DNA from: Sphingomonas sp. M1-B02
GTDB lineage: Bacteria > Pseudomonadota > Alphaproteobacteria > Sphingomonadales > Sphingomonadaceae
Length of the DNA: 64,000 nucleotides
Direction: 5' to 3'
Assembly: GCF_026167525.1 (NCBI RefSeq)
Contig: NZ_CP110679.1
Location: 2,157,501-2,221,500, forward strand
Below are positions 13,285 through 47,763 of the stretch, one piece after another (within the stretch, counting starts at the first letter, position 1; each line of letters opens with the position of its first letter). Position numbers and translations under genes: made by a program. The notes beneath the pieces were generated by a model that saw only the letters and a program-made list of their open reading frames with translations, did no database searches and was not told the DNA's origin.

Positions 13285-13350
13285 CTCCTCCCCGAGCTCG
13301 CTCGGGGAGGGGGACCGCCCGCAAAGCGGGTGGTGGAGGGGCCCCGCCGC
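13285..13350 (+). repeat. Dispersed palindromic repeat, family 1, copy E
   Basis: Two consecutive hairpins, CTCCCCGAGCTCGCTCGGGGAG and ACCGCCCGC/GCGGGTGGT, followed by GGAGGGGCC. Same layout as the copies at 40674, 41068, 46211 and 46293. It lies between the stop of the helical-repeat gene and the start of the capsid gene, inside the GTA-like operon. Confidence 0.8.
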
Positions 13351-40448: not shown

Positions 40449-40670
40449 TTATGCCGCCCGGCGCTGCGGCGCAGGCACGGTGCGCCCGAGTTCCTGCGCC
40501 GCCTCGATCCAGCAGGCAATCGCGTCATAGCCGTTGCGAAGCGCTTCCTCGGGGGTTTCGCCGTCGGATCGGCACCCCGGCAACTCCGGCGCGATCGCCG
40601 CAAAGCCCCCGCCGTCCGCTTCGGAAAGCGGAACGATATCCAGCTCGAAATCCTGCGGTGTCGTGATCAA
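40449..40670 (-). CDS. HicB-like antitoxin, orphan
   Basis: 73 residues from a TTG at 40670, overlapping the stop of the DUF559 gene (TTGA); it ends 11 bp before the pntAB start. The HicB fold is shown by [20 protein letters not shown] (the HicB YxAxxPxLPGC motif), [17 protein letters not shown] and WIEAA. No hicA toxin gene lies on either side, and there is no C-terminal DNA-binding ribbon-helix-helix, so it is a truncated or minimal HicB. It may be a relict, a decoy antitoxin, or a partner for the neighbouring DUF559 protein. Confidence 0.75.
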
Positions 40671-41140
40671 ACTTGATCCTCCCCGGAACGGGGAGGGGGA
40701 CCAGCCGAAGGCTGGTGGAGGGGGCGCGCCACAAGCGCACCGATTGAAGCGGCAACACCATCCGCGTCTTTCAAAACATCCGCACCGTTGACGTGAACGA
40801 CCTTATGCCCGTTCTCAACCAGGAAGCGCTCACGGGTCTCGTCGTGTGAGATCGCATCGGGTTGGGCATGGATCTCACCATCGACTTCGATCGCCAGACG
40901 GGCAGCCGCGCAATAGAAATCGACGATGTAGGGCCCGATCGGATGCTGCTTGCGGAACCGCGCGCCAGCCGTCTTGCGCCGAAGGCGCTGCCATAGCAGC
41001 ACTTCGGGATAGGTCATTTCGCGACGTAGCTTGCGGGCCTTTGTCACCTCCGGCTTCACCGCTCGTGGCGAGCCCCCTCCACCATGCTTCGCATGGTCCC
41101 CCTCCCCGTTCCGGGGAGGATAAGGGGCCGCCCCGCTCAC
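40667..41140 (-). CDS. DUF559 PD-(D/E)XK nuclease-like protein whose ends are encoded by repeats
   Basis: Up to 157 residues from a GTG at 41140 (overlapping the pntAA stop); an internal GTG at about 41061 (VKPEVTKARKLRRE) is a more natural start. The core ARKLRREMTYPEVLLWQRL, HPIGPYIVDFYC and RLAIEVDGEIHAQPD matches DUF559, a Vsr-like endonuclease fold with catalytic acids in VDF and EVDG. The N-terminal 25 residues (PPRNGEGDHAKHGGGGSP) and the last 20 ([15 protein letters not shown]) are translations of two inverted copies of a palindromic repeat. It seems to have been inserted as a cassette between pntAA and pntAB. Confidence 0.85.
   Translation of the reverse strand: MSGAAPYPPRNGEGDHAKHGGGGSPRAVKPEVTKARKLRREMTYPEVLLWQRLRRKTAGARFRKQHPIGPYIVDFYCAAARLAIEVDGEIHAQPDAISHDETRERFLVENGHKVVHVNGADVLKDADGVAASIGALVARPLHQPSAGPPPRSGEDQV
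40674..40730 (+). repeat. Dispersed palindromic repeat, family 1, copy A
   Basis: CTCCCCGGAACGGGGAG then ACCAGCC/GGCTGGT hairpin, ending in GGAGGGGGCGCGCC. Encodes the C-terminus of the DUF559 protein on the opposite strand. Inverted relative to copy B. Confidence 0.85.
41068..41122 (-). repeat. Dispersed palindromic repeat, family 1, copy B
   Basis: On the minus strand: CTCCCCGGAACGGGGAG, then ACCATGC/GCATGGT hairpin and GGAGGGGGCTCGCC. It differs from copy A mainly in the variable second hairpin. Encodes the optional N-terminus of the DUF559 protein. Confidence 0.85.
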
Positions 41141-46196: not shown

Positions 46197-46210
46197 AAGT
46201 GTGCCCTACC

Positions 46211-46271
46211 TTATCCTCCCCGGCACGGGGAGGGGGACCGCCGCCGAAGGCGGTGGTGGAGGGGGCGCGCC
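46211..46271 (+). repeat. Dispersed palindromic repeat, family 1, copy C
   Basis: CTCCCCGGCACGGGGAG, then ACCGCC/GGCGGT hairpin and GGAGGGGGCGCGCC. Starts 15 bp from the folP start codon. Faces copy D with about 20 bp between them, the same inverted arrangement as copies A and B but without a gene inside. Confidence 0.85.
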
Positions 46272-46292
46272 GCAAAGGACGCCGCCCGTGGA

Positions 46293-46343
46293 GAGCCCCC
46301 TCCACCAGCTTCGCTGGTCCCCCTCCCCGTGCCGGGGAGGATA
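46293..46343 (-). repeat. Dispersed palindromic repeat, family 1, copy D
   Basis: On the minus strand: CTCCCCGGCACGGGGAG, then ACCAGC/GCTGGT hairpin and GGAGGGGGCTC. Ends one base before the ccrM stop codon. Paired with copy C. Confidence 0.85.
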
Positions 46344-46344
46344 T

Positions 46345-47763
<1,419 letters not shown>

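Follow-up and report, generated by a model that had tools for sequence, protein, structure and literature searches.

The window, by which we mean the whole stretch of 64,000 nucleotides analysed here from the 3.6 Mb genome of Sphingomonas sp. M1-B02 (G000), carries on its minus strand an open reading frame of 157 aa (40667..41140) that matches the family DUF559 (PF04480; E 1.1e-26, residues 33-134, 93.3 bits against a cut-off of 20.6), with a conserved Vsr-fold domain at about 40739-41044. Inverted-repeat search and folding placed arm A on its 3' side (40674..40730, plus strand) and arm B, a two-hairpin repeat of the family that we call F1, on its 5' side (41068..41122, minus strand). The two arms form an inverted repeat of 62 nt (40676-40737 versus 41060-41121; 90% complementary, 322 nt between) and each folds as two short hairpins (z -3.5 and -4.7), which bears out the first-pass annotation of the window, where A and B had been described as inverted two-hairpin repeats bounding the DUF559 gene. 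The annotation had further proposed that the arms encode both ends of the open frame. Both arms do lie inside it, but their translation is putative, since candidate start codons (28, 32 and 42) are internal to the frame and the predicted model leaves the tails coded by the arms without structure and at low confidence; at the level of the model, the same tails rule out that the protein requires the arms for its fold.

A further inverted pair, copies C and D, lies at 46211..46343, flanked by a gene for a pterin-binding protein (folP-like) and one for a DNA methylase; it encloses no gene and folds as one long hairpin (46212-46259 versus 46296-46343; 48 nt, 81% complementary, 36 nt between; z -10.7). 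It had been taken for a derivative of the DUF559 element; the gene-less inverted pair itself was confirmed, but a standard unit of the REPIN type, about 130 bp long, is a better reading of it than a DUF559 element that has lost its gene. Copy E (13287..13341, plus strand) is a single F1 arm, as annotated, and a hairpin CCCTCTCCCATCGGGAGAGGG at 47670..47690 belongs to another family (CCCTCTCCC type) of the same superfamily.

With up to three mismatches, the core pattern occurred 10 times in the window versus a mean of 1.65 in shuffles, a count in which near-palindromes score on both strands and two of the ten are weak singles. Chance as the origin of the arrangement is ruled out by these shuffles together with the small-ORF and shifted-position controls described below. 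At up to two mismatches the window genome held 77 forward and 81 reverse matches, near-palindromes again registering on both strands, versus 3 and 1 for the reversed control; the full F1 arm pattern gave 56 matches (reversed control 0). At least 18 zero-mismatch inverted pairs, 101-111 bp apart, were found genome-wide, so that C/D is one among many such pairs, and the whole C/D unit (46213-46342) was matched at no fewer than four other places in the genome and, among the matches listed, at many in relatives. Judged by these pattern matches, the paired gene-less repeat is dispersed in the genome, and with the search extended to relatives its association with DUF559 proved far more general than could be seen from the window. 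The genome has four DUF559 genes, with F1, F2a, F2b and F4 arms.

Some neighbouring features may be recorded here. An ORF for a HicB-like antitoxin (PF15919, E 4.9e-9; 40449-40670, minus strand) lies between the DUF559 gene and pntAA2, and an ORF end resembling it was seen by eye at the same place in two other genomes (L064, L076). The methylase adjoining the C/D pair (46345-47763, minus strand; N6_N4_Mtase and RAMA domains) is of the CcrM type; nucleases of the Vsr type often go together with methylases, but nothing found here connects this one with DUF559. Rfam gave a weak match, MIR1858, which is under its cut-off and which we attribute to the hairpin, and PADLOC returned weak partial matches only.

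Inverted repeats bracket DUF559 genes across the genus

A PF04480 search of the window genome and 60 relatives found DUF559 in 45 of the 61 genomes. As a measure of bracketing, the best inverted repeat joining the 250 bp upstream with the 250 bp downstream of each gene was scored; for the controls, the position was moved by 1.2-2.2 kb within each locus. All same-genus matches were taken except eight weak ones in long ORFs (at least 363 aa); the fragments L187_1 and L190_1 were excluded from the tallies, the fragment L134_1 was retained, and L180, at a contig end, stands outside the 125 records reported below. In the first set of loci, 99 of 106 DUF559 genes reached a score of 18, versus 1 of 537 shifted positions and 99 of 520 combinations in which arms were swapped between loci. 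After 20 loci had been added, 112 of 125 records from 36 genomes were bracketed at this score versus 1 of 634 shifted positions; at a score of 16 the figures were 116 and 4, and of the nine records then left unbracketed three are truncated or contain a stop. DUF559 genes of relatives lacking any association with the repeat, named by the first-pass annotation as evidence that would speak against it, are thus the exception. Other small ORFs were bracketed in 1 of 101 cases (80 loci), and the sole ORF over the threshold lies between repeat copies and looks spurious. The DUF559 element spans a median of 454 bp.

At the pnt junction DUF559 was present in 20 of 53 loci, a sample enriched for filled sites, and 18 of the 20 have two intact hairpin cores. 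Among the 33 junctions without the gene, nine measure 14-46 bp, and L198, L089 and L084 retain a single hairpin or a remnant. A filled pnt operon site also occurs in Sphingomonas parapaucimobilis, where DUF559 genes lie within the pnt row, within the sufB-sufC row and between a yqeY-like gene and dnaG. The three records concerned (L351, L357 and L358) are labelled as plasmids; as they carry pnt, suf and dnaG housekeeping genes with DUF559 among them, they may be pieces of a chromosome.

The folP-methylase junction, which harbours C/D in the window, was readable in 29 loci. Three of them have 0-2 bp between the genes and were read by eye as empty orthologous sites; the others hold F4, F5, F6 or hybrid pairs or single hairpins, and some are without such a repeat (by eye). 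The comparison of empty sites that the annotation had suggested therefore succeeded in so far as such sites were found in three relatives, but no target site duplication was seen by eye in a small sample, namely six pairs with their flanks and the folP junction, a difference from insertion sequences and MITEs. The junction (46197-46344; L322-L350) looks like a hot spot for different families across relatives, and one of its hybrids combines an F5 with an F1 arm (by eye).

Repeat families follow protein clades

About ten arm families occur in the genus. The arms vary from gene to gene but follow one plan: first a hairpin, C-rich on its 5' and G-rich on its 3' side, then, in some families, another hairpin, and last a third G-rich tract; the families were sorted with patterns written by eye, and seven records fit none of them or are without arms. 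Inspection by eye found the plan of a triplex motif, a hairpin plus a third purine-rich tract, in the arms of F3, F4, F6 and F7; in F1, F2 and F5 the second hairpin precedes the third tract. The inner hairpins keep their pairing while their sequence varies: at least three outer pairs form in 92% of 53 F1 sequences versus 6% of shuffled ones, and pairing is kept in 96% of 24 F5 sequences, again versus 6%. GTAG or CGTC end tags are not a feature of the 232 arms checked, with GTAG near 8 outer and 13 inner ends and CTAC near 16 and 6, about the level of chance.

When the arm-family labels are mapped on a tree of 106 DUF559 rows, 13 changes are needed, compared with a minimum of 9 and a mean of 67.6 for shuffled labels. 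As common descent has left many genes at shared sites (45 sites for 126 records, the largest with 16, 15, 13 and 12), the pairing test was rerun with one armed row per site. For these 44 rows 10 changes are needed (minimum 8, shuffled mean 28.8), and none of 200 shuffles was as low; family F4 alone occupies 12 different sites in 13 rows. By this measure, every clade of DUF559 proteins comes with a repeat family of its own.

Purifying selection acts on the protein itself, with a median dN/dS of 0.14 over 33 pairs. An alignment of 46 YcjD relatives with the window protein (seven of 80 relatives, which contain a stop or a broken frame, were excluded, leaving 73) has 13 invariant columns in its 47 rows, among them E46, D74, E85, D87 and H91. 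YcjD has been assigned to the PD-(D/E)XK group (PMC1189080). In the predicted model the core is confident and its fold matches the Vsr type; the best structural matches are 3hrl, an endonuclease-like protein of Neisseria, and then the homing endonuclease I-Bth0305I, with Vsr also among them. The DUF559 protein is hence predicted to have a Vsr/homing-endonuclease fold.

Loci outside the genus and ycjD of Escherichia coli

Outside the genus we scored 35 loci, five from the search of relatives and the 30 that ranked highest in the search of the phylum, among which two belong to the family of the window genome. At a score of 16, 21 of the 35 were bracketed versus 2 of 139 controls, with 14 under the threshold; at 18, 18 were bracketed versus 1 of 139. 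Among named YcjD relatives, 38 of 80 reached 16 (controls 1 of 296), in two groups that we set apart: 37 of 48 non-enterobacterial loci, including bins of Gastranaerophilales, Marinimicrobia and Methylomirabilota, versus 1 of 32 enterobacterial-type ycjD loci, a group in which one record is labelled Chryseobacterium and some loci are cut by contig ends. Of the 32 enterobacterial-type loci, 26 do have a TM-type hairpin 3' of the gene and 2 have one 5' of it, at a distance of up to 300 bp. In plasmid-labelled records of named organisms, six of eight loci reached 16 (eight of 15 among the matches listed, from 40 records that matched); the two under it were a Synechocystis locus (12.5) and one from Sphingomonas (14) with visible arms.

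In E. coli K-12, ycjD (b1289) is a DUF559 gene (E 1.4e-49) between fabI and sapF. A hairpin near it, at 1351217-1351239 (L238:2718-2740), is part of repeat no. 9 of the TM_ECO series, which Table 1 of the original report places at 1351204-1351239 (PMC4666352), and a second, inverted and imperfect copy (25 nt, 80% complementary) overlaps the 3' end of ycjD; the 5' side was searched and such a repeat was not seen there. Of 5426 E. coli genomes, 3333 contain at least 80% of the ycjD region, and seven enterobacterial genomes with ycjD hold 18 to 150 TM copies each (control 0). The ycjD-free site of strain SMS-3-5 was rejected as a clean empty site, as TetR and RND efflux genes lie there; eefRABCD has been described at this position (PMC12817139).

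Repeat copy number and presence of DUF559

For five families, copies were counted as pattern matches in 37 same-genus genomes including that of the window (reversed control pattern 0), two arms per matching gene were subtracted, and a few unarmed genes were given a family by their position in the tree. Copy number follows the matching DUF559 type in four of the five: with versus without a matching gene, median copies were 14 versus 0 for F4 (p 3.5e-5), 7.5 versus 0 for F6 (p 3.3e-5), 32.5 versus 1 for F5 (p 5e-5) and 11 versus 2 for F1 (p 0.0053). After correction for own arms, F2a copies do not track the F2a-type gene (1 versus 0, p 0.14). Independent pairs on a pntAA1 tree of 35 genomes gave 6:0 for F4, 3:0 for F6, 3:0 for F5, 4:1 for F1 and 2:2 for F2a (rounded means) in tests that are small, rest on a single-gene tree and reach 0.05 for F4 alone. 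Copies also occur where the matching gene is absent: G018 has 136 F4 copies, no F4-type DUF559 and a gene of the neighbouring type F8, and F5 copies number 50 in G025 and 34 in G008, both without an F5-type gene.

The association extends to the phylum. Among 398 Pseudomonadota genomes, at least three CCCTCTCCC hairpins (pattern CCCTCTCCCN{2,8}GGGAGAGGG) were found in 70 of 110 with DUF559, defined by an E-value up to 1e-12, versus 15 of 288 others (OR 32). With the window's own family left out the counts were 58 of 91 versus 15 of 288, and within 18 families the Mantel-Haenszel OR was 17.5 (p 4e-10). The others include 35 genomes with weak DUF559 matches, and when these are removed the comparison becomes 70 of 110 versus 11 of 253. 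Fewer than three copies, this one motif being counted, were found in 40 of the 110 strict DUF559 genomes. Repeats where DUF559 is missing, which the annotation had named as contrary evidence, are therefore rare but not absent; the richest of the others hold 142 (G423), 107 (G263), 105 (G284), 57 (G177) and 32 copies (G322), G423 and G284 having a weak DUF559 match each.

Discussion

The likeliest reading of these results, to which we give a probability of about 0.6, is that hairpin repeats and DUF559 form one selfish or semi-domesticated system that resembles REPIN-RAYT and employs an unrelated enzyme. The partnership of DUF559 and repeat is strongly supported by sequence comparison, as is the REP/RAYT-like relation with a Vsr-like nuclease that the first-pass annotation had drawn, and this suggests that the nuclease may be the missing partner that spreads or services the repeat. 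The annotation went further and proposed that DUF559 drives the spread. The association it relied on holds; that DUF559 does the spreading, and that the repeats move at all, is what we infer from it at the level of sequence, and repeat-rich genomes without a matching DUF559 exist.

How might such a system work? The nuclease would recognise hairpins that have folded and belong to its own family, which it probably meets in single-stranded or cruciform DNA at the replication fork, and would nick at the hairpin base, after which the released or copied pair would be put elsewhere by host replication and repair. We assign this insertion to the host because the Vsr-type fold cuts but, to our knowledge, has no joining activity. 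Movement of the gene itself is rare; for the most part it is inherited at sites that stay the same, sometimes inside operons.

Other readings have to be weighed against this one. DUF559 might cleave or repair hairpin or triplex structures, so that many copies are tolerated only in its presence, the repeats themselves spreading by another route. This would account for the co-occurrence at genome level and fits the predicted Vsr-like fold, the reported link of triplex repeats to instability (PMC4666352) and the Caulobacter DUF559 protein VsrA, for which a link to DNA damage and to predicted mismatch repair has been reported (PMC12907096). We nevertheless consider it unlikely, as it explains neither the position of the gene, with an inverted copy on either side (112 of 125), nor the match of protein clade and arm family across separate sites. 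Less probable still is homing, in which DUF559 would cut element-free sites, repair would copy element and gene into them, and gene-less pairs would be by-products of deletion: gene-less copies occur at many places and far outnumber gene-bearing ones (in the window genome, four DUF559 genes, one of them F1, versus 56 F1 arm matches), although the nearest solved relative after 3hrl is a homing endonuclease and relatives filled and empty at the pnt operon are known (20 of 53, in the enriched sample). Were DUF559 simply cargo between repeats that RAYT or another transposase moves, the same protein family would not be needed across Pseudomonadota, cyanobacterial and other records, nor would repeat family have to match protein clade, yet the match is seen; we regard this as very unlikely, even though repeat-rich genomes without a matching DUF559 would suit it. 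That the repeats are ordinary terminators or regulators chancing to bracket DUF559 is scarcely credible: same-sequence repeats were presumed to be terminators in Enterobacter sp. 638 (PMC2869309) and the GGAGG end could serve a downstream gene as a ribosome site (by eye), but simple bracketing is ruled out by the 1 of 101 other small ORFs, and families are clade-specific and copy numbers lineage-specific.

We thus return to the reading of repeats and DUF559 as one system and compare it with known ones. In REPIN-RAYT, too, the dispersed unit consists of inverted repeat pairs forming hairpins, a distinctive gene adjoins the same repeat (here bracketed in most records), several gene types per genome each have their own repeat family, and the gene is mostly inherited, not multiplied (PMC3116915). 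The gene-less inverted pairs described here share its fixed short spacing (101-111 bp apart; unit of 130 bp). In contrast, RAYT is a tyrosine transposase of the HUH Y1 type, in whose place stands DUF559 with a predicted Vsr fold, and the GTAG tag of REPs is absent from our repeats; the likeness would therefore be one of function and not of descent. More tentatively, and at slightly less than even odds, we propose that DUF559 including YcjD is a second, independent class of REPIN mobilisers, Vsr-fold nucleases that would spread the intrastrand-triplex hairpin superfamily in bacterial genomes by cutting and copying, without transposase chemistry.

The TM_ECO repeats of E. coli also go by the name of PIT elements. 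In their sequence plan, our repeats match this published 'intrastrand triplex motif' of K-12, which reads CCCTCNCCC-loop-GGGNGAGGG-NNN-GGGNGAGGG and occurs in many copies and in inverted pairs, copy no. 9 being located at ycjD (PMC4666352). Such hairpin/triplex repeats are known from E. coli and over 260 genomes, and in the accessible part of that report the authors found no mobility gene adjoining them in E. coli or elsewhere; here, in contrast, we propose that a nuclease family is dedicated to such repeats, and we extend the superfamily, which in a single genus now comprises some ten families. The fold is shared with Vsr and with VsrA of Caulobacter, which has a DUF559 domain (PMC12907096), but in E. 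coli the gene associated with vsr encodes a methylase, and the DUF559 gene here lies between repeats. The description of I-Bth0305I (PDB 3r3p) is that of a protein from a mobile intron, whereas the gene studied here sits between hairpin repeats of which gene-less copies exist too. CGTC-tagged REPs are paired palindromes of alphaproteobacteria that, in the accessible text, were also reported without a dedicated transposase, and they differ from our repeats in stem length and tag (PMC3733652).

In the literature searched, which mostly lies outside subscription journals, no report of a link between DUF559 and hairpin repeats was found. The link gives a testable role to both partners, the hairpin repeats and DUF559 (YcjD), a family without an assigned purpose, and it does so in E. 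coli K-12 as well. If the proposal is true, small DNA repeats would have a nuclease-based route of spread in addition to those known.

A minor observation concerns the two members of a dispersed pair, which are often unlike, with a short and a long inner hairpin in F1 (G003) and CC versus TT linkers in F4 (G018). The contrast resembles that of types A and B in E. coli (PMC4666352) and hints at distinct left and right ends; the F1 arms of the DUF559 elements themselves are often alike.
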